A stretch of DNA of 43,931 nt from Terriglobia bacterium. Its GTDB lineage: Bacteria > Acidobacteriota > Terriglobia > JAIQFV01. Below the pieces are notes generated by a model. It saw only the letters and a list, made by a program, of their open reading frames with translations, did no database searches and was not told where the DNA came from. The translations under genes were made by a program, and so were the position numbers. The stretch spans positions 1 through 43,931 of the forward strand of contig JAQUPQ010000034.1 of NCBI GenBank assembly GCA_028716525.1. The letters are read 5' to 3'. Below, piece after piece: positions 22-38,186 of this stretch (its first letter is position 1; each line of letters opens with the position of its first letter).

Positions 22-462
22 GCGCCTGTAGCTCAGGTGGATAGAGTCCCCCGCGGGGGACCTTCTAAGCAGAGTATTGAATAGAACGATCGAAAACTGA
101 AAAACGATTCCGTTCGCTCTGTTTCTTACTGAAATTTTTGAGACATGTTCGACGGATTGCTGTGAGACGCGCCTGTAGCTCAGGTGGATAGAGTCCCCCA
201 CGGGGGACCTCCTAAGCAGAGGATTGAACAGGACAATCAAAAACTGAAAGACGATTCCGTTCGCTCTGTTTCTTACTGAAGTTTTTGAGACATGTTCGAC
301 GGATTGCTGTGAGACGCGCCTGTAGCTCAGGTGGATAGAGTCCCCCACGGGGGACCTTCTAAGCAGAGGATTGAATAGAACGATCGAAAACTGAAAAACG
401 ATTCCGTTCGCTCTGTTTCTTACTGAAGTTTTTGAGACATGTTCGACGGATTGCTGTGAGAC
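22..462 (+). repeat. Three tandem 147-bp repeats with broken tRNA-Arg 5' halves
   Basis: Three direct repeats begin at 22, 169 and 316, with a fixed period of 147 bp, and the intact tRNA begins one period later at 463. Each unit opens with the acceptor 5' strand and D-arm of the downstream tRNA-Arg(TCT). The 5' anticodon-stem strand is then replaced by the palindrome GTCCCCCRCGGGGGAC. The anticodon-loop part CTTCTAAGCAG follows, and the 3' half of the tRNA is missing. The rest of each unit is a nearly identical spacer of about 95 bp, the same sequence that lies directly upstream of the intact tRNA. The units therefore look like duplications of tRNA plus upstream region, not an independent repeat family. 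Confidence 0.93.
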
Positions 463-539
463 GCGCCTGTAGCTCAGGTGGATAGAGCATCTGCCTTCTA
501 AGCAGGAGGTCGCCCGTTCGAGTCGGGCCAGGCGCGCCA
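463..539 (+). tRNA. tRNA-Arg (anticodon TCT)
   Basis: A full 77-nt cloverleaf can be folded. The acceptor is GCGCCTG/CAGGCGC, the D-stem GCTC/GAGC, the anticodon stem TCTGC/GCAGG around loop CTTCTAA, and the T-arm GCCCG-TTCGAGT-CGGGC. A CCA end is encoded. The anticodon TCT reads AGA/AGG arginine codons. Broken copies of its 5' half lie upstream and copies of its 3' half lie at 8.9 and 10.5 kb, so this gene appears to have been the attachment site of an island. Confidence 0.97.
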
Positions 540-585
540 ATTCTTTCAATACGTTGTGCGGCTTTTTTCATTCCTGAAAAATCCA

Positions 586-603
586 CTGTAGTCGATTTTG
601 TAG
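586..603. repeat. 18-bp direct repeat near the left island end
   Basis: CTGTAGTCGATTTTGTAG occurs here, 47 bp after the tRNA-Arg end, and again in the same orientation at 8751-8768, shortly before the first tRNA 3' fragment. The two exact copies sit just inside the two ends of the putative island. They may be recombinase arm sites or remnants of a common end sequence; the function is not known. Confidence 0.7.
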
Positions 604-609
604 ATACTG

Positions 610-640
610 AAATCCGCAAGAATCAAAAAGCGGATTTTTT
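610..640 (+). terminator. Rho-independent terminator downstream of tRNA-Arg
   Basis: AAATCCGC (610-617) pairs with GCGGATTT (630-637) across a 12-nt A-rich loop and is followed by further T residues. It would stop plus-strand transcription coming from the tRNA-Arg(TCT). Confidence 0.75.
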
Positions 641-698
641 CGTAAGAAATAGCCGTAGTAAATCCACCAAGAAACACAAACTCACCCCCGTTTCTGCT

Positions 699-786
699 TC
701 GGGCATAGGTGCCCTAGGGAAAGAGGTCGTAAAGGCAATGGGACTGCGGCTCTGGGCGTGCCAACGAACCGGCATGTTGTCAGTCG
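699..786. repeat. Dispersed direct repeat, left copy (about 88 bp)
   Basis: The segment begins with the palindrome-like GGGCATAGGTGCCCTAGGG and ends with AACCGGCATGTTGTCAGT. A diverged copy in the same orientation lies at 2559-2645. The two copies bracket the SorC-type regulator and its tiny divergent gene. No gene is seen between 540 and 1024 apart from this repeat, the terminator and the hairpin at 964. Confidence 0.7.
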
Positions 787-963
787 GAGATTCAATTACA
801 ACATAAATCGGGACTGATACCAGCATAGATGGCAAAGCCCATCGGAACGAGCAACGGGCCATCTGAAATTCGTGGATTCCTTGACGTGTGGTGAAAGAAG
901 TGTGGTCGATGAGAGAATCGACAGGTAAAAGACTTCTTAAAATTTAGAGAAAATAAATAATTA

Positions 964-1000
964 AAGGGGATGTTAGTCTACTAGAGACTAACATCCCCTT
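964..1000 (-). terminator. 16-bp perfect hairpin, terminator for the tiny minus-strand gene
   Basis: AAGGGGATGTTAGTCT (964-979) and AGACTAACATCCCCTT (985-1000) form a perfect 16-bp stem with a 5-nt loop. Read on the minus strand, the stem is followed by a T-rich tract (AATTATTTATTTTC), as expected for a Rho-independent terminator. It lies 24 bp past the stop codon of the 31-codon gene at 1025-1120. There is no T-run on the plus-strand side. Confidence 0.82.
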
Positions 1001-1024
1001 GGGAATACCGCTGCGTGTGATTTT

Positions 1025-1120
1025 TCAGTCGTCATCGCCGTCTTGCGACGGTTGCCATGGGCCATTGTCGACAAAATCACCCAATACTTCACCTGCGGCA
1101 TCAAACGGGTCATCTGCCAT
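1025..1120 (-). CDS. Tiny acidic protein of 31 residues, divergent from SorC-type regulator
   Basis: This short reading frame has all the marks of a real transcription unit. A strong Shine-Dalgarno (AAGGAGG, with GGAGG 8 nt before the ATG) precedes it, a stop follows after 31 codons, and a T-tailed perfect hairpin lies 24 bp further on. The peptide is very acidic. It starts MADDPFDAAG, has one Trp (NGPWQP) near the C-terminus and ends SQDGDDD. No signal peptide or membrane segment is seen. A possible promoter (TTGACA, 17 bp, TGTCAT) has its -35 inside the palindrome at 1185-1200, so control by the divergent SorC-type regulator is likely. I do not recognise a family. It could be a small effector, a ligand for the regulator or a structural peptide; translation itself is inferred from the signals. 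Confidence 0.62.
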   Translation of the reverse strand: MADDPFDAAGEVLGDFVDNGPWQPSQDGDDD

Positions 1121-1161
1121 TGGAGTCTCCTCCTTTCAGCGTAAATTTTCTTGCAATGCGG

Positions 1162-1190
1162 ATGACATCAAATCTTTCTTTGCATGTCAA
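1162..1190 (-). promoter_or_regulatory. Putative promoter of the 31-residue protein gene
   Basis: On the minus strand a consensus -35 TTGACA (1185-1190) is separated by 17 bp from a weaker -10 TGTCAT (1162-1167). The -35 lies inside a 16-bp palindrome, which suggests repression by a protein bound there. The -10 matches only 4 of 6 positions, so this is tentative. Confidence 0.4.
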
Positions 1191-1244
1191 TATATTGACA
1201 AACATTGTCTAAATGAGACTTCATATTGACAGAATATGTCTAAT
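1185..1244. promoter_or_regulatory. Operator cluster of TGTC inverted repeats
   Basis: Three inverted repeats are packed between two divergent genes. They are the perfect palindrome TGTCAATATATTGACA (1185-1200), GTCT-aaatg-AGAC (1207-1219), and ATTGACA-gaata-TGTCTAAT (1225-1244). The first covers the -35 of the minus-strand promoter and the last covers the -35 of the plus-strand promoter. This is a typical layout for an autoregulated, divergently reading regulator, here most likely the SorC-type protein at 1409. Confidence 0.65.
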
Positions 1245-1254
1245 CTAATATCAT
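1226..1254 (+). promoter_or_regulatory. Sigma-70-type promoter of the SorC-type regulator
   Basis: A consensus -35 TTGACA (1226-1231) is separated by 17 bp from TATCAT (1249-1254). Transcription would start near 1261, leaving a leader of about 148 nt before the regulator start at 1409. Confidence 0.65.
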
Positions 1255-1259
1255 TCAGT

Positions 1260-1301
1260 TTACCCCTCAGACCATTGGTGGTACGAAGGAAACGTAGCCA
1301 T
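1260..1301 (-). CDS. Possible 13-codon leader-type peptide with duplicated ribosome site region
   Basis: On the minus strand a GGAGG sits 6 nt before an ATG that opens a 13-codon frame (starts MATFPSYHQW, ends SEG). The sequence upstream of its Shine-Dalgarno, TTGCAAGAAAATCTACGCTG, is nearly identical to the sequence upstream of the 31-residue gene (TTGCAAGAAAATTTACGCTG). The two tiny frames therefore share a duplicated 5' leader. No clear promoter is visible for it, and it may be a decayed copy. Confidence 0.3.
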   Translation of the reverse strand: MATFPSYHQWSEG

Positions 1302-1408
1302 TGTTGTCCTCCGGGACAGCGTAGATTTTCTTGCAAAAGCGTTTCCTTCAACCCGTTGGTCTCAGGGGTTTATTTTGTACGACCACACCGAATTTACTGG
1401 AGGTTGCG

Positions 1409-2437
1409 ATGCGCAATGAGCAAAGTGATCATCTCCGGAAACTGTTGAAAGCGTCCCATCTGTATTGCAAGGCCAAAGGCGAAATCAGCTATAGAAAGAT
1501 CGCCAAGGCGTTTGATCAAAACTACGCCAACTATGGGAAAAGGCTCATCGAGGAATCGAAGTTGCAGGGAATTATCACGTTTGAATACAAATATCATCCC
1601 CCTCGACTTGCAGGTCTTGAGTATGCTCTCGTACAGACTTTTAGCGCCCTAAGAGATGCGATTGTTACACCCTCAACTGAGGATTATGAATTTCAAAGAA
1701 GGCTCTGGGGAGAGGCTGCCGCCGAATATTTTGATAAGGAAATTGCACTGCCAAAGACCAAGGTGGGCTTGAGTGGCGGAAACACCCTGTATGAAATGAT
1801 TGCGGCTCTGCCGGAAAAGGACAGGGACATTATCCTTTACCCGACCGCAATAATTGGTAGGGGCCCGACGGTTGCCCACGTGGACCCTATAGCAAACGTT
1901 ACCCTGCTCTGGGCCAAGAGCGGAAGAAAGGCCGACAGGGCACATTACGTGACCGTATTACCTTTTGAGAAGGGCCAGCTAGTCCAAGACGTCCGCAAGG
2001 AATATAAACAATTTCTCAAGAGGGCAAAAGTTCAGGCAGTCTTGGAAGAGATGAAGTCGTTGGATGCCGTCGTGACAAGCCTGGGTCCAGCGAACGCAAG
2101 TGCAGAGTATATGAAATATACCCATTCCACGACTTTGGGGCTGCTCAAAGAGATGGGCATAACAAAAGAGAAGCTGCTGGCGATGGGCGCAGTAGGCGAC
2201 ATTTGCTATTGCTATCTCAAAGAGGATGGAAGCACTTCGCCAGATCTCGACTTCTTTCTGACCCTTGGAAGGGAGACGCTTGTAGAAATGGCATCAAAAT
2301 ATCCTCACAAAAAGGTAGTCGTCATCGCAGGAAAACACAAGATGGATCCGCTCAGAGCCGTCTTGAAGGGCAGACTTTGCAGTGTGCTTATAACAGATGA
2401 ATTGACAGCTGAAGAATTGGTGAGAAATTTCAAATGA
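1409..2437 (+). CDS. SorC/DeoR-type transcriptional regulator with sugar-phosphate-binding domain
   Basis: The protein has 342 residues from the ATG at 1409, chosen because GGAGG lies 5-6 nt ahead of it; an upstream in-frame ATG at 1331 has no such site. The N-terminal 50-60 residues are helical and basic (KASHLYCKAKGEISYRKIAKAF), as in a SorC-type helix-turn-helix. From about residue 90 the SorC sugar-binding domain is recognisable: VGLSGGNTLYEMI, then GAVGDICYCYLKEDG (compare the family hallmark GAVGDIC), then VVVIAGKHKMDPLRAVLKG and VLITDELTAEEL at the end. Family members sense phosphorylated sugars and control adjacent catabolic operons. No sugar pathway gene is next to this one. Its only close partner is the tiny divergent gene, with TGTC inverted repeats between them, so autoregulation plus control of that gene is the simplest reading. 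The ligand is unknown. Confidence 0.8.
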   Translation: MRNEQSDHLRKLLKASHLYCKAKGEISYRKIAKAFDQNYANYGKRLIEESKLQGIITFEYKYHPPRLAGLEYALVQTFSALRDAIVTPSTEDYEFQRRLWGEAAAEYFDKEIALPKTKVGLSGGNTLYEMIAALPEKDRDIILYPTAIIGRGPTVAHVDPIANVTLLWAKSGRKADRAHYVTVLPFEKGQLVQDVRKEYKQFLKRAKVQAVLEEMKSLDAVVTSLGPANASAEYMKYTHSTTLGLLKEMGITKEKLLAMGAVGDICYCYLKEDGSTSPDLDFFLTLGRETLVEMASKYPHKKVVVIAGKHKMDPLRAVLKGRLCSVLITDELTAEELVRNFK

Positions 2438-2558
2438 TGGGAGAAAGAACACCACAACTTCAACAAGTGCTATTTTTGATAATTTACCGATTTCAGATCA
2501 GCATAACAAATCCACAGAGTTTGTAAGGAGTGACTCTTTGGCACTCCGGGCACTCCCT

Positions 2559-2645
2559 CGGGCATTGGTGCCCTAGGGGATAGGCAGCAAACGCCAATAG
2601 AATTGCGTGGTTGCGCGTCTGCCTCAACCGGCATGTTGTCAGTGG
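2559..2645. repeat. Dispersed direct repeat, right copy
   Basis: This is a diverged copy of the segment at 699-786, again running from GGGCATTGGTGCCCTAGGGG to CAACCGGCATGTTGTCAGT. It occupies most of the 316-bp gap between the SorC-type gene and the recombinase operon. The frames that run through it read similarly in both copies, which reflects the repeat and not a protein. Confidence 0.7.
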
Positions 2646-2753
2646 GTGCCTTGCTTTTCTGTTTTTTCTTCCCTTTCGTCCTTTTCCAATCTGTATTCTG
2701 GTTCATCTTTTCCCGTCTTTCCGAATCATTCGATCCCTTGTATGGTGACCCCT

Positions 2754-2984
2754 ATGCCCTTTCCACCCACCCTCCAGGACTTGTATCCGCATTACACGCC
2801 TCAGCAGTTGCAGGCAGCCGAAGAAAATCTGCTGGCATATTTGGCCGTGGTCATGCGCATTTACGAGGGAATCCAGGCTGATCCGGCAAAGTACGCGGAA
2901 TTTCTGCGTTTGACAAATCAGAACCCATCTTTTAAGGTGCAGGGTGCCAAAAGCTTACCTTCCTTAACTTCCGCAAAACCATGA
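2754..2984 (+). CDS. Small protein of 76 residues coupled to the serine recombinase
   Basis: The frame starts MPFPPTLQDLYPHYTP and continues with helical segments (LQAAEENLLAYLAVVMRIYE, then DPAKYAEFLRLT). Its TGA stop overlaps the ATG of the recombinase (ATGA), so the two are translationally coupled. I chose the ATG at 2754 because a GGTGA lies 5 nt upstream; an ATG at 2742 would add four residues. From memory, short proteins with this LYP/AEENL/RIYE pattern are common upstream of large serine recombinases and resolvases, but I cannot name a defined family. A role as accessory factor for the recombinase is inferred from coupling only. Confidence 0.62.
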   Translation: MPFPPTLQDLYPHYTPQQLQAAEENLLAYLAVVMRIYEGIQADPAKYAEFLRLTNQNPSFKVQGAKSLPSLTSAKP

Positions 2985-4537
2985 AATCTCCAGTATATTT
3001 CGGATATATCCGCGTCTCCACTGCCAAGCAGGGAGAGCACGGGGTGTCCCTGCAGGAACAGCGCGCCGCGATCGAGCGTTACGCCCAGCACAATCAGTTT
3101 CCTATTTCCCAATGGTTTGAGGAACGGCAGACTGCGGCCAAGCGCGGCCGCTCCGGGTTTACCCGCATGCTCAAACTCCTGCGCTCAGGCAAAGCTCAAG
3201 GCGTCATCATCCACAAGATTGACCGCAGTGCCAGGAACCTCAAAGACTGGGCGGATCTCGGGGAACTCATTGACCAAGGTATTGAAGTCCGTTTTGCCAA
3301 CGAGAGTCTGGACTTGCATTCCCGCGGTGGCCGGTTGTCTGCTGACATTCAGGCTGTAGTGGCTGCGGACTTCATCAGAAACCTCCGGGAAGAAACCAAG
3401 AAAGGGATTTACGGGCGCTTGAAACAAGGCCTGTATCCGCGCCCAGCGCCTTTGGGCTATGTAGACCAAGGCCAGGGCCGACCCAAAGCCCTGGATGCCA
3501 CCTTAGGGCCGGTGGTGCGGCAGGTGTTTGAGCTTTACGCTTCTGGCCAATATACCTTGTTGGCTTTGCAGGACAAGGCCTATGCCATTGGCCTGCGGAA
3601 CCGCAACGGTAGGCGCGTCAGTTTTACTGGTTTGTCCTCCCTTTTGCATAACCCCTTCTACATGGGGCTCATCCGCATTCAGCGCACCGGAGAAACCTTT
3701 CCCGGGATTCATTCGCCGCTCATCAGCAAATCCCTGTTTGACCGGGTGCAAGATATGCTCCAAGGCCGCACCCGTGCCAAAACCCAAAAGTATGCCTTTG
3801 TGTTTCGTAAACTGTTTCGCTGCAAGTTCTGCGATTATGCGGTGGTGGGGGAAACCCACAAGGGCCATGTCTATTACCGCTGCCATACCAGAAATTGCCA
3901 AACCAAATATTTTACCGAAAGCGCCATTGAGAACGCGGTCCTGGCGCACATCTCTCCGCTGCAGCTGAATGCCGCAGAGCTGGCTTATCTGGAAAGCAAA
4001 ATCACGACCCTGCGGACGCATTGGACCAGCGAGAAGCATGTCCAAACCCAGGCCTTACAGTTGCGCCTGGGAAAACTACAGGAGCGCTTAGCCCGCCTCA
4101 CTGATGCGTATTTGGATCAAGCTCTGGAGAAGGATTTGTTTGAGGAAAGAAAAACCGCGCTTCTGATGGAGCGCAAGGACGTGGAAGAATCATTGGCCAA
4201 GGTGGAGGATGTAAACCGGTCAATCCCAGACGAGCTCACGGAATTCCTCGAACTCCTGAAATCCGCACCATTACAATACAAACTGGCAAACCCAGACCAA
4301 AAGCGGGAACTTCTGCAAACACTGACATCGAACCGGCAGGTGGCCGGCAAAAACGTGGAACTGGTGCTGAAATTGCCGCTCGCGGAGATTGCCAAGCGGC
4401 AAAAAATTCTAGATGGTGACCCATCTCATGGCCTGGCTCTTGTTTGGGATCCGTTGTTTGAACGGCTGGTTAGGATTTTCTCCGAAGCTAGAATGGGACT
4501 CAAAAATGCTCACTCTGATTCAAGTTTAGCACCTTAA
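2981..4537 (+). CDS. Large serine recombinase (resolvase/invertase superfamily)
   Basis: The protein has 518 residues. The N-terminal catalytic resolvase domain (about 1-150) carries YIRVSTAKQ with the nucleophile at Ser13 and the SLQEQ and DRSARN blocks. A recombinase DNA-binding domain follows (about 160-270). A zinc ribbon comes next with Cys281, Cys284, Cys301 and Cys306, and then a long helical, probably coiled-coil, region (about 320-430). Such enzymes cut and rejoin DNA at att sites through a 5'-phosphoserine link and serve as integrases of phages and mobile elements. The gene overlaps the small upstream gene by 4 bp. A paralogous C-terminal remnant lies 160 bp downstream (4700-4795), so more than one such element has passed here. 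Its length is normal and no frame damage is seen, so it may be active. Confidence 0.92.
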   Translation: MKSPVYFGYIRVSTAKQGEHGVSLQEQRAAIERYAQHNQFPISQWFEERQTAAKRGRSGFTRMLKLLRSGKAQGVIIHKIDRSARNLKDWADLGELIDQGIEVRFANESLDLHSRGGRLSADIQAVVAADFIRNLREETKKGIYGRLKQGLYPRPAPLGYVDQGQGRPKALDATLGPVVRQVFELYASGQYTLLALQDKAYAIGLRNRNGRRVSFTGLSSLLHNPFYMGLIRIQRTGETFPGIHSPLISKSLFDRVQDMLQGRTRAKTQKYAFVFRKLFRCKFCDYAVVGETHKGHVYYRCHTRNCQTKYFTESAIENAVLAHISPLQLNAAELAYLESKITTLRTHWTSEKHVQTQALQLRLGKLQERLARLTDAYLDQALEKDLFEERKTALLMERKDVEESLAKVEDVNRSIPDELTEFLELLKSAPLQYKLANPDQKRELLQTLTSNRQVAGKNVELVLKLPLAEIAKRQKILDGDPSHGLALVWDPLFERLVRIFSEARMGLKNAHSDSSLAP

Positions 4538-4569
4538 GGCAGGATTAAACAGAATCCGTGATCGCATAG

Positions 4570-4607
4570 GGCATTGCCCCCAGCAGCACTGCCCGAGGGG
4601 GAATGCC
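4570..4607. repeat. Imperfect palindrome downstream of the recombinase
   Basis: GGCATTGCCCCC (4570-4581) pairs with GGGGGAATGCC (4597-4607), with one bulged base and a 15-nt loop. It lies 33 bp after the recombinase stop. It could aid termination but has no T-run, and it resembles the other REP-like palindromes of the window. Confidence 0.55.
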
Positions 4608-4699
4608 TCGAAAGCCTTTAAATATAGGGATTTCTAGCGGCAGGATACTGGCGAGTGTCAGATATCTGTCTGCTCTTTATCCTGTACAAAACTGTAGTT

Positions 4700-4795
4700 A
4701 GTCCATCTCAGGGCGTGGCTCTTGCTTGGGATCCGCTGTTTGAAAGATTAGTAAGGATATTTTCCCTGGGGGGAGAATATGAATGGGAGTGCTAG
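4700..4795 (+). pseudogene. Remnant C-terminus of a second serine recombinase
   Basis: The frame reads SPSQGVALAWDPLFERLVRI followed by FSLGGEYEWEC and a stop. It closely matches the last part of the intact recombinase (DPSHGLALVWDPLFERLVRI, then FSEARMG). No start codon or upstream domain is present, so this is the leftover end of a related gene. Deletion by recombination between two recombinase genes, or insertion of one element beside an older one, would leave such a fragment. Confidence 0.8.
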
Positions 4796-4831
4796 GGATA
4801 GGTCGCTTGAAATTTTGTAAAGAGCAACCAT

Positions 4832-5575
4832 TCAGAGTCGTTTTGCCAGTTCTTCATATGCTGTAATGACATAAGGCATCTGAGGAAGAATTGTGCTCAT
4901 TTCTACATCCACAAGCGGGTTGTGGGCAGCGGTGTCGCCGAGAAACTTTATGCCCTTAATCTCATTCGCGGTTTTTGGCACCAAGAATGGAACACCGTGC
5001 AGTTTCTCCCGAGCCGCGGTTTCGATCATGTCCTTCAGGCCAATCCATCCGCCAGGTCGATTTTTTGCCTCTAGTAGATGCCCTTTGCCATTTTTAGTAA
5101 TCACAATAATAATGAGTTTTTCGAGGATTTTTCTCAGAAGAAATGCTGTACAGTTTCCGTTCTTCCCAAAGTTGCCTTGCAACTCTTCGAGTTCTCGACC
5201 GAAGTTTTTCTTCAAACGACCCATTAGCTTCTCGGAGAAGAGCTCCTCCTCAATCTCTCGGACTTTTTTTTTCTTCCCGATCGACCTCAGGGCTTCCTCT
5301 CTCTTCACGCTTGAAATGACCCAATAGTTGCCTCTATGGCCTGACAGCTTGATACCTTGTACAATATCAGCCCGCAAGAACTTCTGCATATAAGTCTGCA
5401 CATGATTCGTCTTCCATCGCTTTCCAAATCTATCCCTCAACCTCGATACGACTTCTTCACTTGAAATGGGAGAGTCAAAGGAACCATCAAGAATCAACTT
5501 TTGCAGCAGAGCGTATCGACTATTCGGGTCGATGGCTAAATTCCGCGCCCTTTCTTTGATGGATTTACCAGACAT
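4832..5575 (-). CDS. Winged-helix-like protein fused to a DUF4145/HEPN-like domain
   Basis: The protein has 247 residues from the ATG at 5575; a TTG at 5599 would add eight. The N-terminal part (about 15-95) has the same pattern as the three smaller proteins encoded upstream: LLQKLILDGSF, a middle helix (EEVVSRLRDRF), then FLRADIVQGIKLSGHRGNYW, like a winged helix with a basic wing. A Lys-rich linker follows. The C-terminal half (about 130-247) is helical, with CTAFLLRKILEKLIIIVI and IKGIKFLGDTAAHNP, which resembles DUF4145-type HEPN-related domains in its AAHNP box. The canonical HEPN RNase motif (Rx4-6H) is not clearly present, so RNase activity cannot be claimed. The start overlaps the preceding gene by 11 bp, marking it as the last gene of a four-gene operon. 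DNA binding and a defence or regulatory role are inferences. Confidence 0.62.
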   Translation of the reverse strand: MSGKSIKERARNLAIDPNSRYALLQKLILDGSFDSPISSEEVVSRLRDRFGKRWKTNHVQTYMQKFLRADIVQGIKLSGHRGNYWVISSVKREEALRSIGKKKKVREIEEELFSEKLMGRLKKNFGRELEELQGNFGKNGNCTAFLLRKILEKLIIIVITKNGKGHLLEAKNRPGGWIGLKDMIETAAREKLHGVPFLVPKTANEIKGIKFLGDTAAHNPLVDVEMSTILPQMPYVITAYEELAKRL

Positions 5576-5912
5576 ATGCAGCCTGCTTCTTCTTTCCAAT
5601 TACCTTCGAGCTTTTTCGCAGCTGTTTACGCCTCTGAAGGCGTAAAAGGGCCATCGCAACCCGATTAGCATCGCATGGGTAGACAGATTGTAACTTTGCA
5701 TGGACCTCATTGGAGGTCTTGGCTTGCTTAAAAAAGCCTTCCTCTCTTAATCGAAGAATATGGCCCGGCAAGGTCTTTGCTGAAGCTCCCTTGGCCGCGG
5801 GCTTGCGGCTAGTTTTCTGGCGCCCATTACCCCGCCCGCCTATCTCCTTCAAAGATTCTTGAACGAGCGCCTGGATTTGCTGGAGTTTTACAATAAGCGT
5901 TTTCTTGTCCAT
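5565..5912 (-). CDS. Small winged-helix-like paralog C (115 residues)
   Basis: It begins with an amphipathic helix (LIVKLQQIQALVQESLKEI, about 5-23), followed by a Gly/Lys/Ser-rich linker. The C-terminal domain of about 70 residues contains ILRLREEGFF, an NEVHAKLQSV helix and a basic end (LLRLQRRKQLRKSS). The order and spacing match the paralogs at 5960 and 6316 and the N-terminal half of the protein at 4832. It overlaps the next gene by 11 bp and follows paralog B by 47 bp. No Shine-Dalgarno is obvious, which fits translational coupling. The predicted role is DNA binding, with the N-terminal helix for oligomerisation; no family name can be given. Confidence 0.6.
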   Translation of the reverse strand: MDKKTLIVKLQQIQALVQESLKEIGGRGNGRQKTSRKPAAKGASAKTLPGHILRLREEGFFKQAKTSNEVHAKLQSVYPCDANRVAMALLRLQRRKQLRKSSKVIGKKKQAAYVW

Positions 5913-5959
5913 AAGTTTATGGCTTTCTTAATTGATGTAAAAGGATTGAAATGTGAGCC

Positions 5960-6310
5960 TCATTTACGGAGGGCATACTTCCATTTCTTGTCGCCTTTAT
6001 CACGAAACCTCGTAAGCACTCTTTCCCGCACCAAATTCAATAATCCCATGGACACAGTTGGTCTGGAGTAGTGCCTTCCATCTTGCCGCAAGAGTTCAAT
6101 AATTTCTGGCAACTGCTTCGGAGAGTTGAGTTTCCCTTCGTCGGCTAATAGCCTGATGCCCCCGGTAGCGCCAGAAGGTTCTTTTTTCACAACAGCAGAA
6201 AATGGTTTCTTTGAGGCGTGGCCAGCCTCGACACGCGCACCCGCAATATGCGCAAGTTCAGAAACTAAAGCCATGATTTGTTCTGCAATTTTTTTCGGAT
6301 CTTTTTTCAT
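5960..6310 (-). CDS. Small winged-helix-like paralog B (116 residues)
   Basis: An N-terminal helix (KKIAEQIMALVSELAHIAG) and a short linker lead to a C-terminal domain of about 65 residues. That domain contains IRLLADEGKLNSP, LPEIIELLRQDGRHYSRP and LLNLVRERVLTRFRDKG, ending KKWKYALRK. The segment HYSRPTVSMGLLNLVRERVL resembles a winged-helix recognition helix followed by the wing strands. The start lies 5 nt after the stop of paralog A, so the two are almost certainly co-translated. The function is unknown beyond likely nucleic-acid binding. Confidence 0.62.
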   Translation of the reverse strand: MKKDPKKIAEQIMALVSELAHIAGARVEAGHASKKPFSAVVKKEPSGATGGIRLLADEGKLNSPKQLPEIIELLRQDGRHYSRPTVSMGLLNLVRERVLTRFRDKGDKKWKYALRK

Positions 6311-6315
6311 ATTCG

Positions 6316-6672
6316 CTATTTGGTCATCTTAAAATATTTGTAATGCCCTTTTCCTCCAGGCTTCTCGCGATAAAGTATCCTCTTGCGAACGAGAAACCGC
6401 AAAGGTTTCATCAGCGTTGTGGATGGTTTATTTATCGCCCTCTGGTGGAGTTTGTTTACAATTTCTGAAATTTCTCTTCCTCCTTTAAAATAATCTTCCT
6501 GGACCAAGGAAACAATCTCCGCAGTCAGGCCAGAAAATTTTCCAGTGATTCCGTCATGTGAAGTTTTGGCCTTTGATTTTCTCTTCACTTCACCCCGATC
6601 GATACTCAAACACTCTTTCAGTTCCTGCAAAAGGGTCTCGATCTCTTGGATTATTTCAAAGCGTTTATCCAT
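6316..6672 (-). CDS. Small winged-helix-like paralog A (118 residues), first gene of operon
   Basis: This is the promoter-proximal member of the four-gene set. The N-terminal leucine/isoleucine-rich helix (IIQEIETLLQELKECL) could form a coiled coil. It is followed by a Lys-rich linker (VKRKSKAKTS) and a C-terminal domain with IVSLVQEDYFKGG, ISEIVNKLHQR and LRFLVRKRILYREK, ending KGHYKYFKMTK. The nearly consensus promoter at 6729-6758 lies about 50 nt upstream of its start codon. The operon looks more A/T-rich than the permease array, which fits acquisition with the tRNA-anchored island. Confidence 0.62.
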   Translation of the reverse strand: MDKRFEIIQEIETLLQELKECLSIDRGEVKRKSKAKTSHDGITGKFSGLTAEIVSLVQEDYFKGGREISEIVNKLHQRAINKPSTTLMKPLRFLVRKRILYREKPGGKGHYKYFKMTK

Positions 6673-6728
6673 ATGATTTAATCTCTATTTTATTACCAAT
6701 TAGAATTTCTAGTGTCTAACTACGCTTA

Positions 6729-6758
6729 ATTATAAGCAAATAGCGGATATTCTGTCAA
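6729..6758 (-). promoter_or_regulatory. Consensus sigma-70 promoter of the four-gene winged-helix operon
   Basis: On the minus strand TTGACA (6753-6758) and TATAAT (6729-6734) are both perfect hexamers with an 18-bp spacer. Transcription would start near 6721, about 50 nt before the first gene. The -35 region TTGACAGAATAT is shared with the SorC-type gene promoter. Confidence 0.82.
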
Positions 6759-7134
6759 GGTAGAAAATCATATTACAACCGAGTAAAAAAACAAGTGTCC
6801 AAGAATGGCTTATATATGAGGTTTTAGGACATTGGCATCAAATTTTTAATATATATCACTATGCTCAAAGACATCGCAAGGATATCCACAATTGCAGGCG
6901 TCCCTTGGCATGGATAAGTGCCGCTGTACGCTGCATCGGGAAACAGGCATCCAAAGCACGGTCCTGTTTCCTCTTTAACAAACACACACCTGATCCCTAT
7001 CAGCACTGACTCTTGTATATATGACCGTATTAATCTTTCCCTGAAATGCCGGTCACCGCGCCTTGGCGACGAGCCTAGACCCAATTGCCAATAGCGAAGA
7101 CCTCACCTTCTCTATTCCTGCAGGAAGATGTCCG
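6759..7134. other. Intergenic region with nothing recognised
   Basis: Between the operon promoter and the control region of the 461-residue gene there is no reading frame with a ribosome site, no RNA gene and no clear repeat that I can support. Confidence 0.5.
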
Positions 7135-7156
7135 CGCGCCGATAGGCGCGTATAAT
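7135..7156 (+). promoter_or_regulatory. Perfect -10 box with abutting palindrome
   Basis: A consensus -10 TATAAT (7151-7156) directly follows the inverted repeat CGCGCC-gata-GGCGCG (7135-7150). The palindrome occupies the spacer position and no good -35 is present. That suggests either an operator or an activator-dependent promoter for the gene at 7233. Confidence 0.5.
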
Positions 7157-7232
7157 GCTCGGCGTATGAAGATAGAAATGGGTGGGCTTCCCGTTTTTCC
7201 AAGTTGAGGGATCTGAATCGAGAGTTGTTTGA

Positions 7233-8618
7233 ATGAGCTTGGTACTTCCTCCCGACGTCGCTCGCATCTCAAGGCTGCGCTTTAACGCGCTGGCTGGTTA
7301 CAGCCGCAAGCCGAGTACCGAGTTATTTGCCGGTGAGATATCCTGGTATGAGCATAAGCGGGCACCCGTCCTTGGGGCACTGATTATCGTTTTCACGGAC
7401 GAAGATTTCGGTGGAATCATCATGGGTCGCGATGAAGGTCGTCGGATGAGATGTGTCGACGTGGTCGGATGGTACGATTCTCCTGAACAAGCGGAGATAG
7501 GGTTGATCGCGAGGCTCGAAAATTGGGCAAAGCGCCCGCTTGCAGATATGGAGCAAGGCGGCAGGCAATATCCATTTGTCGATATGTTTACACCGATAGT
7601 TCAACCCGCGAAAATGAGCACGGCCTTCGCGAGACTGCTCAATGCTGAAGGCTTCTCGTGCGGTCGAGGCATAATCGAAGCAATGATGCCCTATTTTGAA
7701 GATGTCGACAGCAATTTTGTCGAGCAATTCCAAAGCACCGGGTTCGATTCACGGATCTGGGAGCTGTATCTTTTTGCCCTTCTGACCGAAGGCGGGTATG
7801 TCTTTGACCGTCAATTTCAAGCTCCGGACTTCTTTTGCAACGGTATTTCACAGCAAATTTTCGTGGAAGCAGTAACAGTTAATCCTACGCGAAACGGCAA
7901 CATCATCACGGAACCACCGGTACCCGAAGACAAGCAGGAGCTTGTCGCCTATTTCAAGCAGTACATGCCTATCAAATGGGGCAGCGCACTGACCGGCAAG
8001 TTGCGTAAGGAGTATTGGGCATTGCCTCACGTTCAGGGAAAGCCCATCGTCTTTGCCATTCAAGATTTCCACGCTGACAGATCCATGACGTTCACGAATT
8101 CAACATTGAGCCCATATTTGTATGGCCTGGAGTTTGCTGCTTACTACGATGCGGATGGAAATCTTCAGGTGAGCGGGACGCCAATTCAAGAACATAGATG
8201 GGGAGATAAGTGCATTGAGTCCGGATTTTTCCGCCTGCCGAATTCTGAGATGATCAGTGGGGTCATTCAGAACCCAACCGCGACGATTTCAAAATTCAAT
8301 CGGATGGGGCATCTAGCCGGCTTTGGGAGCAAGGCAGTGCGCATGCTGAAGGCAGGCACGGCCTACGACCCCGATCCCAATGCGGCTCTTCCGAGGGAGT
8401 ACTTGCAAGATGTGAACAGCGAAGGATATCGAGAGACGTGGAGCGAGGGTCTAAATATATTTCACAACCCCAATGCCCGGTATCCCCTGGATAACTCCTT
8501 TTTCCCTCAGTGCATGAATCATCGGTTGATAAACAATCAGGTTGTGCATAACATCCCTGAATTCCATCCATTCACCGCGGAGACCTTCATTTTGAGTCCG
8601 AAGCGCACTGAAAATTAG
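7233..8618 (+). CDS. Uncharacterised 461-residue protein, possible nuclease-like core
   Basis: This long frame starts MSLVLPPDVARISRLRF and has no signal peptide or membrane segment, so a cytoplasmic protein is likely. I recall similar proteins annotated only as hypothetical. Conserved-looking stretches are APDFFCNGI, FVEAVTVNP, YMPIKWGSALTGKL, FAIQDFHA, EHRWGDK, TISKFNRMG and ETWSEGLNIFHNPNARYPLD. A Glu in a helix (IWELYLFALL, about 171-180), a PD pair (APDFF, about 192-196) and FVEAV (about 206-210) follow the order of a PD-(D/E)xK nuclease core. The expected Lys after the last Glu is missing (EAV), so catalysis is uncertain. It stands alone on the plus strand near the right end of the island. 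The start codon has only a weak ribosome site. Confidence 0.7.
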   Translation: MSLVLPPDVARISRLRFNALAGYSRKPSTELFAGEISWYEHKRAPVLGALIIVFTDEDFGGIIMGRDEGRRMRCVDVVGWYDSPEQAEIGLIARLENWAKRPLADMEQGGRQYPFVDMFTPIVQPAKMSTAFARLLNAEGFSCGRGIIEAMMPYFEDVDSNFVEQFQSTGFDSRIWELYLFALLTEGGYVFDRQFQAPDFFCNGISQQIFVEAVTVNPTRNGNIITEPPVPEDKQELVAYFKQYMPIKWGSALTGKLRKEYWALPHVQGKPIVFAIQDFHADRSMTFTNSTLSPYLYGLEFAAYYDADGNLQVSGTPIQEHRWGDKCIESGFFRLPNSEMISGVIQNPTATISKFNRMGHLAGFGSKAVRMLKAGTAYDPDPNAALPREYLQDVNSEGYRETWSEGLNIFHNPNARYPLDNSFFPQCMNHRLINNQVVHNIPEFHPFTAETFILSPKRTEN

Positions 8619-8829
8619 TGCTCGAGCCCGTGTCTTTCACCAAGACCTCAACTGCAAAGAGGATATCTACTACTTACCTCTGGCCGCGTGAGAAAATGAG
8701 CATGGCCTACAATCAGATTCTCCCTGTGATCTTCGATACGGTTCATTTGGCTGTAGTCGATTTTGTAGCTGTCGAACGCCACACGGTGCAATAAAATTCA
8801 ACAAATTTCCATAAGCATGCCACAACGGC
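8619..8829. other. Intergenic stretch before the right-end repeat
   Basis: Apart from the 18-bp repeat at 8751-8768, no gene, palindrome or promoter is recognisable here. Confidence 0.5.
8751..8768. repeat. 18-bp direct repeat near the right island end
   Basis: This is the second exact copy of CTGTAGTCGATTTTGTAG, in the same orientation as the copy at 586-603. Confidence 0.7.
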
Positions 8830-8926
8830 TTGCATCAGAAAGCCTTGTTTTTCGGCCATTTTCTGGTATTTTTGTCACCGCCTTCTAAGCAGGAGGTCGC
8901 GCGTTCGAGTCGCGCCAGGCGCGCCA
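8830..8926 (+). repeat. Island right-end repeat with tRNA-Arg 3' fragment (att-like, copy 1)
   Basis: About 49 bp starting TTGCATCAGAAAGCC lead directly into the 3' part of tRNA-Arg, from the anticodon loop to CCA (8880-8926, beginning GCCTTCTAAGCAGG). The T-arm still pairs (GCGCG/CGCGC). The same composite recurs at 10444-10539. A tRNA 3' fragment starting at the anticodon loop is the usual scar where an integrated element has duplicated its tRNA target. Confidence 0.75.
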
Positions 8927-9038
8927 AATTTGTGCCTTTTCCCCCATAGTTATCTTGATCGCCCGCATTTCTGGCGGGGTCGACCAGTTGCAGAGAAATT
9001 GAAGATGGAAGTTCGTAGCGTCCCGAAGAGAATCAATA

Positions 9039-9123
9039 TCGCCTGTAGCTCAGGTGGATAGAGTCCCCCACGGGGGACCTTCTAAGCAGGAGGTCGCGCG
9101 TTCGAGTCGCGCCTGGCGCACCA
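9039..9123 (+). pseudogene. tRNA-Arg(TCT) pseudogene with inserted palindrome
   Basis: This is an 85-nt relative of the tRNA at 463. It keeps the D-arm, CTTCTAA loop, T-arm (GCGCG-TTCGAGT-CGCGC) and CCA. The 5' anticodon-stem strand is replaced by GTCCCCCACGGGGGAC, exactly as in the repeats at 22-462. The acceptor has mismatches at positions 1/72 and 6/67, and the D-stem has lost a base. It should not fold as a working tRNA. Confidence 0.75.
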
Positions 9124-9187
9124 AATTTTTGAAGCCCTCGGAAGCTTTTTACGAATTCCCCGAAATTTCCATTTCATCAATTCCGTC

Positions 9188-9860
9188 GTTCTTGATATCC
9201 CTTCTGGATCAAGATTGGGTTCGGGTAGCGATGCCAAGTCCCCCGCGGGGGACGCAGGCAGCGGCTTTTAGCCTGTCTGCAAAAAGCCAGCTTCGTTATG
9301 GGGGTCAAGATGTCGTATTTGCCAATTGGGGTTGAGCGCTGGTGACGCCAACATCGGATTCTTCAAGATAAGATTCTTAGAACTCCCGCGAGATTAGATT
9401 GCCCTTTCAGGGCAAGTAATCAAACGGGCTTTTCAGACCCAGGGCGATGCCCTGGGCTATTGAAGCTTGCCCCTGCGGGACAATTGCTGGATCCGCTAAC
9501 GCAATATCGTCAATTTGGCCGTTGTTGATTTCCCTTCTGGATCAAGATTGGCTTTTGGTAGCGATGCCAAGTCCCCTGCGGGGGACGCAGGCAGCGGCTT
9601 TTAGCCTCCCTGCAAAAGGCCAGCTTCCTTATGCGGGTTAGGATGTCGCATTTGCCATTTGGGCGTGGGCGATGGTGGCGCTGACATCGAATTCTTCAAG
9701 ATACGATTCTTGGATGGCCCTTTCAGGGCAAGAAATCAAACAGGATCTTCATACCCAGGGCGCTGCCCTGGGCTATTGAAGCTTGCCCCTGCGGGGCAAT
9801 TGCTGGATTCGCCAACCCAATATCGTCAATTTGGTCGTTGTTGATATCCTTTCTGGATCA
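9188..9860. repeat. Tandem non-coding repeat of about 335 and 315 bp
   Basis: Units begin at about 9191, 9527 and 9841 with TTGATATCCCTTCTGGATCA or close variants. Each of the first two carries the palindrome GTCCCC(C/T)GCGGGGGAC, and the units also contain GCCCTTTCAGGGC, CCCAGGGCGCTGCCCTGGG and TTGCCCCTGCGGGGCAA type palindromes. The third unit is truncated. Frames through this stretch have no ribosome sites and change with the repeats, so I see no gene. Confidence 0.8.
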
Positions 9861-9879
9861 AGATTGAGTTCTGGCTGGG

Positions 9880-10440
9880 TGGCGCACACATGAGTTCTTA
9901 GCATGTGTGCGGATGCCGGAGTGAGCATTACATTTTCTGGTAGCCGGGATCCCGCAGAGCGGGATCCCGGACCACGAAAGGAAAATGAAATATTGGCGGG
10001 GTGGTGTCGTTGATTTTTCTTAGCTGCCGCAGTGCGGCACAAAAGGGTAGCCTAGCGTGTGGGCCCCGAATATGAGGAGCCCACACGCCAGGGCATAATC
10101 AGCCACAAACAATTCTTGTCTCTGGCCGCCCTGACAGGGCGGCCAGAGATTATTATTGTCATTGGGGGACGCATTTTGTCCTTGGGTTGCAGGACCTGAT
10201 AGAACTCGGCCCCTTAACCCAAGGCTACTACCTCTTGCCGCTCCGCGGCATGTGCGCGGACGGTTTGATGAGAGCAAATTGAATTCCAAGCGAAAGAGTT
10301 TGTGCTGTTTACTGCACACATCGAAAAAACCACGATGTGTGTGCGAACCCGCCATATCACGGTCTCCTTTCGGTAACCTGTAATATGAGGCAACGATCCC
10401 TTCTCGCTACCTTTTTCGGTAAGCTTTAATGTGAGTCAAT
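9880..10440. repeat. Cluster of REP-like palindromes
   Basis: Successive inverted repeats are visible: GCACACATG...CATGTGTGC near 9880-9910, GATCCCGC-agaGCGGGATC near 9948-9967, GCCGCAGTGCGGC near 10023-10036, GTGTGGGC...GCCCACAC near 10059-10087, and TCTGGCCGCC...GGCGGCCAGA near 10120-10147. There is no convincing coding frame. This resembles the palindrome-rich intergenic DNA seen upstream of the last two permease genes. Confidence 0.65.
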
Positions 10441-10443
10441 TCG

Positions 10444-10539
10444 TTGCATCAGAAAGCCTTGTTTTTCGGCCATTTTCTGGTATTTTGGTCACTGCCTTCT
10501 AAGCAGGGGTCGCCGGTTCGAGTTGGACCAGGCGCGCCA
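10444..10539 (+). repeat. Island right-end repeat with tRNA-Arg 3' fragment (att-like, copy 2)
   Basis: This is nearly identical to 8830-8926. The same leading segment ends in GGTCAC and then the tRNA-Arg 3' part (10492-10539). One base of the variable loop is lost and the T-stem is damaged (GCCGG/TGGAC), so this copy is the more decayed. Two such copies suggest two successive integrations at the tRNA. Confidence 0.72.
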
Positions 10540-10734
10540 AATCTACAGTTCATGTTTTTGGCAAACCCGAATGTTCAGGATCAAGACCATCAGCGCCATT
10601 CGCAATGCTCCTCTGACGCAGATTTAAGACCTTCGTGCTGTGCTCCGCTGAAGTTTCCTCTGTACGAGGCGTTTGCAACCGTATCAATCTGACAGAACCT
10701 CTTGGGGCATGATTCTTTCTTGTTTTTCATTCCA

Positions 10735-37691: not shown

Positions 37692-38186
37692 AAGATTTTC
37701 CCTCGCCGGTGACACCATTCTCACGGCCGCTTCATTTTACGGCTGCCCTGAGTCCGCTTCAGCGGGCTTGCTCTTCCTCAGCCCGCCGGTTCACCGGCGG
37801 GAAGCAATCAAAAGCAATAATTCTTTAATTCTCTTGAAGCCCCGTTCACGGGGCTTGATTCTCCCCGGCGTCCCTTAAGGGACGGCGAAAGAGAATGGCT
37901 GCCTGGAATTCTCTGTCGCCCCATCAATGGGGCTCAAAACAATAACGAGAAAAACGATCTCACTCACGATCCTATTCCCCGCCGGTGAACCGGCGGGCTG
38001 AGAGCAGCAAGCCCCGTGAACGGGGCTGCAAAAAGCGTTGTAGACGGCGTGTGTTTGAGAAATTGCATTTCCTCGATTTCACCCCTCACTATTAAGATTT
38101 CTCAAAAGAATCGGCCCACTCTCGACCTGAAACCTGACATCCGCCAAAAAGCCGGCGGACCTTCGGCCTGACCCCTGACTCCTGAT
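37692..38186. repeat. Permease 9 leader and REP cluster (copy b)
   Basis: This 495-bp gap has two parts. Next to permease 9 is a leader also found upstream of permease 10, with a GCCCGCCGGTTCACCGGCGGG palindrome near 37781-37801. From 37839 to 38186 it is the same 345-bp palindrome unit as at 34650. I see no promoter motif or gene. Confidence 0.75.

Follow-up and report, generated by a model that had tools for sequence, protein, structure and literature searches.

Here we describe a 16-base palindrome, GTCCCCNNCGGGGGAC (P below), that several lineage-restricted families of REP-like repeats in the genome of a Terriglobia bacterium have as their hairpin core, and that also sits, bare of any repeat arms, in dead copies of a tRNA-Arg(TCT) gene. 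The reading we prefer, to which we give a probability of about 0.57, is that a REP core came to be copied, a single time, into an additional copy of the tRNA gene, most likely by a template switch, and that the dead allele was then duplicated. The window, by which we mean the whole stretch of DNA that was analysed, is the 43,931-nucleotide contig JAQUPQ010000034.1, one of 104 contigs in a genome of 4.20 Mb, and its features are collected in Table 1.

P occurs at six places in the window (46, 193, 340, 9063, 9238 and 9571). Strictly, the CG-centred form alone is palindromic throughout: the CA- and TG-centred forms have a mismatched central pair. The name that the first-pass annotation gave to all of them thus holds in full just for the CG form. 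With up to two mismatches allowed, the pattern gives 12 strand-matches at the six places, against an expectation of 0.05 and a largest count of 2 in 100 dinucleotide shuffles of the window. Across the genome there are 27 forward and 28 reverse exact matches, compared to 0 and 0 for the reversed pattern, and 46 forward and 49 reverse matches with at most one mismatch, compared to 1 and 2. Chance matching is ruled out by the shuffles together with this control. The distinct places number 51 (33 exact and 18 with one mismatch), one of which, on contig C104, is the overlap with the start of the window, leaving 50. The flank comparisons below cover 48 of these, the one-mismatch places C12:4108, which lies inside an ORF (L107), and C31:6274 being left out.

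Table 1. Features of the window that bear on P, with their positions, strand and source
Feature	Position	Strand	Evidence and remarks
Three 147-bp tandem units, each with a tRNA-Arg(TCT) 5′ half and P	22..462	+	TRF, sequence
P, CG centre, array unit 1	46..61	+	Sequence match
P, CA centre, array unit 2	193..208	+	Sequence match
P, CA centre, array unit 3	340..355	+	Sequence match
Intact tRNA-Arg(TCT)	463..539	+	ARAGORN; Rfam RF00005, 65.6 bits; GCATCTGC where the pseudogenes have P
Large serine recombinase (Resolvase, Recombinase, Zn_ribbon_recom)	2981..4537	+	Pfam; between the intact tRNA and the first 3′ fragment
tRNA-Arg 3′ half, att-like fragment	8881..8934	+	Repeat search
Full-length tRNA-Arg pseudogene with P	9039..9123	+	Sequence; derived from tRNA-Arg(TCT)
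P as GTCCCCCACGGGGGAC	9063-9078	+	CA centre, within the tRNA-like sequence 9039-9123
Class A REP-like element, GGTAGCGATGCCAA-[P 9238-9253]-GCAGGCAGCGGC	9224..9265	+	Inside a longer repeat
P as GTCCCCCGCGGGGGAC	9238-9253	+	Within the class A REP-like element
Second class A element, P at 9571-9586	9557..9598	+	Repeat comparison
P as GTCCCCTGCGGGGGAC	9571-9586	+	Within the second class A element
Second, degenerate tRNA-Arg 3′ half	10494..10547	+	65% ungapped identity to the first fragment

Of the six places in the window, four fall within sequence that comes from tRNA-Arg(TCT); the remaining two, near 9238 and 9573 as first reported, belong to REP-like repeats. That P stands at an identical position of the tRNA had been noticed at the outset, and this is borne out by the full-length pseudogene and by the three truncated copies of the tandem array. 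In the array (22-487 by TRF, period 147, 95% matches) each unit consists of a 5′ tRNA half with P, then CT(T/C)CTAAGCAG, then a spacer of ~96 bp. The assembly breaks inside this array, and the end of contig C104 that overlaps the window start (L079) carries, by eye, an MFS-transporter-like frame and a leader with TTGCCG and TTAGAAT ahead of array unit 1. All four tRNA copies read CGCCTGTAGCTCAGGTGGATAGA-P-CT(T/C)CTAAGCAG, and they are alike for 23 bp on the left side of P and for CTTCTAAGCAG on the right side, the one exception being CTCCTAAGCAG in unit 2. Since the four share one flank, they go back to one event followed by duplication.

At 9063..9078 P replaces GCATCTGC, and the smallest change that accounts for it is the replacement of CATCTG by TCCCCCACGGGGGA, that is, of 6-8 bp, with no visible target duplication. 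The part replaced is the 5′ strand of the anticodon stem; checked by hand, the minimal replacement destroys four of the five anticodon-stem pairs, while the anticodon loop and the D arm remain, the last pair of the D arm turning into G-U. The GCATCTGC that was lost forms a 3-bp inverted repeat around TC in its own right, something expected by chance once in 64. Unlike the gene at 463-539, the copy at 9039 is called as a tRNA neither by ARAGORN nor by Rfam at its gathering threshold. In this genome 46 tRNAs exceed the Rfam cut-off (150 of 178 candidates scored). The intact gene in the window is the only tRNA-Arg(TCT) found with an intact anticodon stem. The tRNA copies of P have none of the A, B or W arms: in local alignments of the 60-bp flanks of the tRNA copy with those of classes A, B and W the best scores were 5-8, where 200 shuffles of one 120-bp pair reached 10.5.

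Of 399 genomes of the class, this one alone matches the tRNA-P pattern with up to three mismatches; an exact scan of a wider collection of genome contigs, from which the window's own genome was possibly left out, gave 0 matches. The family was represented by three genomes, and the other two belong to another genus; each of these has one tRNA-Arg(TCT) match, with GCATCTGC followed by GCAGAGGGTCG and no P there. An empty site was sought in both by synteny, and their tRNA-Arg loci have other neighbours. Exact P is absent from one of the two and present at four places in the other (G002, L081-L083), all of them reading GTCCCCCTCGGGGGAC with a common right arm, TTG..GTACAGCCCGC, unlike any arm in the genome studied here. 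P-type cores thus also cap further repeats in that relative.

Outside the tRNA, P has several unrelated sets of flanks. The first-pass annotation had reasoned that one ancestral flank common to all copies would mean duplication and not insertion, and had asked for a genome-wide count of the palindrome and its flanks; with that count made, the argument holds for the four tRNA copies but not for the rest of the places compared. The 48 places compared fall into the tRNA (4), class A (13), class B (18) and others (13), or, counted by arm pair, into a1-a2 (13), b1-b2 (13), b2-b3 (4), t1-t2 (4), b1-w (2), e-e2 (2) and w2-b2 (1), with one or both sides unassigned in 9.

Class A, GGTAGCGATGCCAA-P-GCAGGCAGCGGC, is a GTAG-footed nested hairpin of ~42 bp, laid out as GGTAGCGATGCC-AA-P-GCA-GGCAGCGGC. 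GTAG-tagged REPs are marked by a short stem-loop (20-40 bp) that ends on one side in an unpaired GTAG, and class A conforms to this; the GTAG is unpaired in the minimum-energy DNA fold, and its AG is paired in the RNA fold. The copies are dispersed, mostly intergenic and many, as REPs are. Their mean pairwise identity is 0.94-0.96 in the 15 bp beside P, 0.41-0.48 in the next 15 bp and ~0.25 beyond, so that flank identity is on average at background beyond ~30-60 bp, even though some copies, including the two in the window, are embedded in longer repeats (units 333 and 316 bp apart in the window). The full class A pattern, with up to three mismatches, has 15 sites, a low number for a REP, all of them in this genome alone among the 399. 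A variant with the inner stem GTCCGCC..GGCGGAC stands at C18:27389, and the same with a changed end at C5:58126. Class B is longer, with several hairpins, and keeps a mean pairwise identity above 0.4 for ~60 bp to the left and ~120 bp to the right. The W repeat is again GTAG-footed, and its parental element (w-w2, at L088 on contig C83) has the core ATCCCCGTCGGGGGAT, two positions off P. The earlier suggestion that P is a REP-type element thus stands outside the tRNA, where P is the centre of REP-type repeats, but not for the tRNA copy, in which the core stands by itself and REP arms are missing.

Most P sites are extragenic. Of 33 sites, 2 fall in ORFs of at least 200 aa, and such ORFs cover 70% of the 425.8-kb sample in which this was counted, a sample chosen around P sites and Y1 genes, which biases its counts. 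Two candidate signals were set aside. A preference for the neighbourhood of tRNA genes is not indicated, since by eye 2 of the 46 distinct places outside the tRNA allele (C5:48215 and C21:38732) lie within 150 bp of a scored tRNA, which is not striking for mostly intergenic elements. GTCC is the commonest palindrome end in the P-centred sample (62, against a shuffle mean of 5.25 and a largest value of 11 in 20 shuffles), but CCCC (61) and CCCG (59) come up just as often and P itself makes up 23 of the 62, so no weight is put on GTCC..GGAC as a special signature. Elsewhere in the window, the palindrome GTCCCTT(A/G)AGGGAC occurs at 37870 and 40996 with identical 14-bp flanks on both sides, and the minus strand from 13110 to 40850 holds ten ORFs of ~800-900 aa, of which the one tested is a MacB/FtsX permease.

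The exchange of arms at P is the most interesting side result of the analysis. Both reciprocal types of chimera are present. L052, which was counted under class B, has W on the left, P, and B on the right (w2-b2), its left side identical to the W parent at 110 of 118 positions and its right side to the B parent at 83 of 97. L055 and L057, counted under others, have B on the left, P, and W on the right (b1-w), with identities of 57/64 to B and 54/66 to W for L055, and of 54/62 to B and 14/15 to W for L057. In L057 the far left also matches the W parent, at 20/21 positions of that parent's far-left flank, so the history of this repeat is not a simple one. In the chimeric cores the outer bases track their own arm, A/T on the W side and G/C on the B side, so the switch of arms lies inside the core. 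Sixteen base pairs are short for RecA-type recombination, and for that reason template switching would be favoured. It is a tentative and rather doubtful extension of these results that P-type cores serve as exchange joints, at which repeats swap their arms and from which the core alone can take the place of a short hairpin-like segment of a gene unrelated to them (here GCA-TC-TGC in the anticodon stem of the tRNA), hairpins of 14-16 bp thereby spreading without a transposon.

For the tRNA, the course of events that we propose is the following. A P core without the arms of any REP found here would have been copied, a single time, into a surplus tRNA-Arg(TCT) gene, taking the place of the 5′ strand of the anticodon stem and inactivating this gene copy. 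The most likely step is a switch of the replication template to a REP hairpin, with a microhomology of 1-2 bp at the junctions (AG on the left and C on the right). The dead allele would then have been duplicated locally, giving the array of three truncated units that precedes the intact gene and, ~9 kb downstream of that gene, one full-length copy. The anatomy of the copies, the single flank that they share, the bareness of the core and the arm-switching chimeras are seen in the sequence, whereas we infer the template switch, the direction from REP to tRNA and the order of the duplications. Several points count against this proposal. Microhomology of 1-2 bp could be chance. Both arms of the allele are tRNA, so either two exchanges or one short templated patch is needed, unlike in the chimeras, which take one switch. 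The core of the W parent is two positions off P, and L057 has the extra W match described above. In the predicted minimum-energy RNA fold of the whole pseudogene (9039-9123), which has no cloverleaf, P does not fold as its own hairpin, and only 4 pairs of P form in the predicted DNA fold of 9050-9095; the intact tRNA-Arg, folded as RNA, has four arms with the anticodon arm shifted. Finally, the right edge of P and the left edge of the att-like 3′ fragments coincide to 1-2 nt, a closeness that fits a role for a recombinase.

Integration at a tRNA gene usually leaves a recombinase gene together with a duplicated 3′ half of the tRNA, and the window has an integrase-type gene that adjoins such a duplication. 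In the first 3′ fragment, the start of the tRNA part corresponds, to 1-2 nt, to the end of P in the pseudogenes. At the second, a 64-bp stretch (~50 bp of left arm and 14 nt of tRNA) is 97% identical to 8830-8893. Taken together, the sequence of 540-10547 suggests the remains of integrative elements from two tandem integrations, one of them largely decayed. It is only suggestive, given the few bases that differ, that the truncated units, which read GCAGAGG or GCAGAGT, may preserve an earlier state of the host sequence, and that the intact gene, which reads GCAGGAGG, may have received its 3′ half with the integrated element.

Because the edges of P and of the fragments agree so closely, we keep as a rival route, unlikely as we judge it, that P reached the tRNA by site-specific recombination of the serine-recombinase element, the P allele being a hybrid attachment site with the right edge of P near the crossover. 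The recombinase itself is at hand, both 3′ fragments begin where P ends (CCTTCTAAGCAG) and have ~50 bp of left arm in common, and the truncated units run on after CTTCTAAGCAG into a spacer that is not tRNA. Against this, the left edge of P abuts tRNA as well, so the arm of the element would need to have carried the tRNA 5′ half and P. Moreover, the spacer occurs in this genome only here and in the overlapping end of C104, and it has no match in phage records, so that its identity with known phage sequence was dropped.

The first-pass annotation had proposed instead that P is a mobile REP-type element with a preferred target, and the corresponding rival, that a RAYT- or IS200-like transposase with a preference for tRNA genes moved it, we consider improbable. 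Class A is indeed a dispersed, GTAG-footed hairpin, and the search for a RAYT-type gene that the annotation called for turned up ten genes with Y1_Tnp (PF01797), L017 to L026. L017-L024 exceed the NCBIfam cut-off for IS200/IS605 and L025 falls just below it (50.7 vs 55). None of the ten passes the 80 bits of REP_Tyr_transpos (the NCBIfam REP-associated tyrosine transposase), the best being L026 with 65.8, and class A stands beside none of them in the 2.8-3.3 kb around each, apart from one unpaired 9/10 half-match at L020; no RAYT with class A on its flanks was thus found. One relative does lie among W- and B-kind repeats: upstream of the IS200-type gene of L017, at 127-207 bp, stands a GTAG-footed W repeat whose core is P-like, and downstream, at 119-221 bp, a repeat of class B type that lacks P. 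This part of contig C83 (L017 and L088) shows a possible REPtron-like arrangement. L024 has a one-mismatch P core 65 bp upstream, a weak link because other palindromes (GTCCCATCGGGAC and GTCCTGATGGGAC) also adjoin the gene. By eye, L018-L025 have a G-rich motif of the kind GGGGG..GG(G/A)TT near the gene start on the opposite strand, which was not seen at L017 and L026.

The tRNA itself speaks against such a transposase. GTAGC precedes P there as it does in class A, but GTAGCTC is present in many bacterial tRNAs, so the shared GTAG is weak evidence. A target preference would be expected to leave independent insertions in more than one tRNA context and REP arms at the insertion; what is found is one tRNA allele in four copies with one flank, a bare core, and tRNA bases replaced. 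No second D arm followed by GTCC..GGAC was found in the genome with one exact pattern of the common D-arm form, and P in other tRNAs was dropped as a candidate on this pattern. The supposed preference for tRNA is accordingly not supported.

Two further explanations are very unlikely. Several independent insertions of P at the same tRNA position might be read from the CG centre of unit 1 where the others have CA, but one G/A difference is no more than ordinary mutation, the adjoining bases are the same, and three of the copies are one tandem array. It is just as hard to believe that the P-bearing tRNA halves are a functional RNA, a leader hairpin array acting on the transcript of the intact tRNA-Arg: the array does lie directly upstream of that gene, and P forms a hairpin in the RNA fold of unit 3, the one unit folded, but the z-scores of the folds, -2.1 and -1.6, are modest, no promoter-like or terminator-like site came out of a consensus scan that covered 1-600, short of the leader on C104, and no other of the 399 class genomes has the tRNA-P pattern. 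A functional leader was rejected for want of support from the folds and that scan.

Among known systems, GTAG-tagged REPs, as far as the sections of Di Nocera et al. 2013 (PMC3733652) that concern them go, are the closest. Class A and W are likewise short dispersed hairpins with GTAG at one end, and P sites are likewise mostly extragenic. Unlike those REPs, class A is capped by a second palindrome, P, that is common to unrelated repeats; its copy number is low, and no RAYT was found that it flanks. The same sections report REPs inside protein genes and name none inside a tRNA gene. They also describe TIRtrons with their TIRYT transposases, including those of Acidobacteria, which the eight Y1 genes L018-L025 resemble by eye in being single and diverged with palindrome repeats nearby; the palindromes around them are mostly not P. 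Rickettsia palindromic elements (RPE) are palindromes inside genes as well, but the RPEs named there are in protein genes and RPE-1 is called longer, whereas here one bare core is in a tRNA pseudogene. In the titles and abstract openings of the literature on REPs or palindromes with tRNA we found no description of such a case, and what we sampled of the literature on chimeric REPs and template switching held no direct precedent.

REPs are usually thought to spread as whole elements, helped by a Y1 transposase. Here, one core is common to repeats with unrelated arms, reciprocal chimeras switch arms at that core, and the bare core lies inside a tRNA gene. P is apparently a genuine but modest curiosity in the spread of short hairpins through bacterial genomes. 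If the pattern is general in palindrome-rich genomes, the unit that evolves would be the hairpin and not the element, and that idea can be tested on the tRNA copy, where the junction is clean and the ancestral sequence known.
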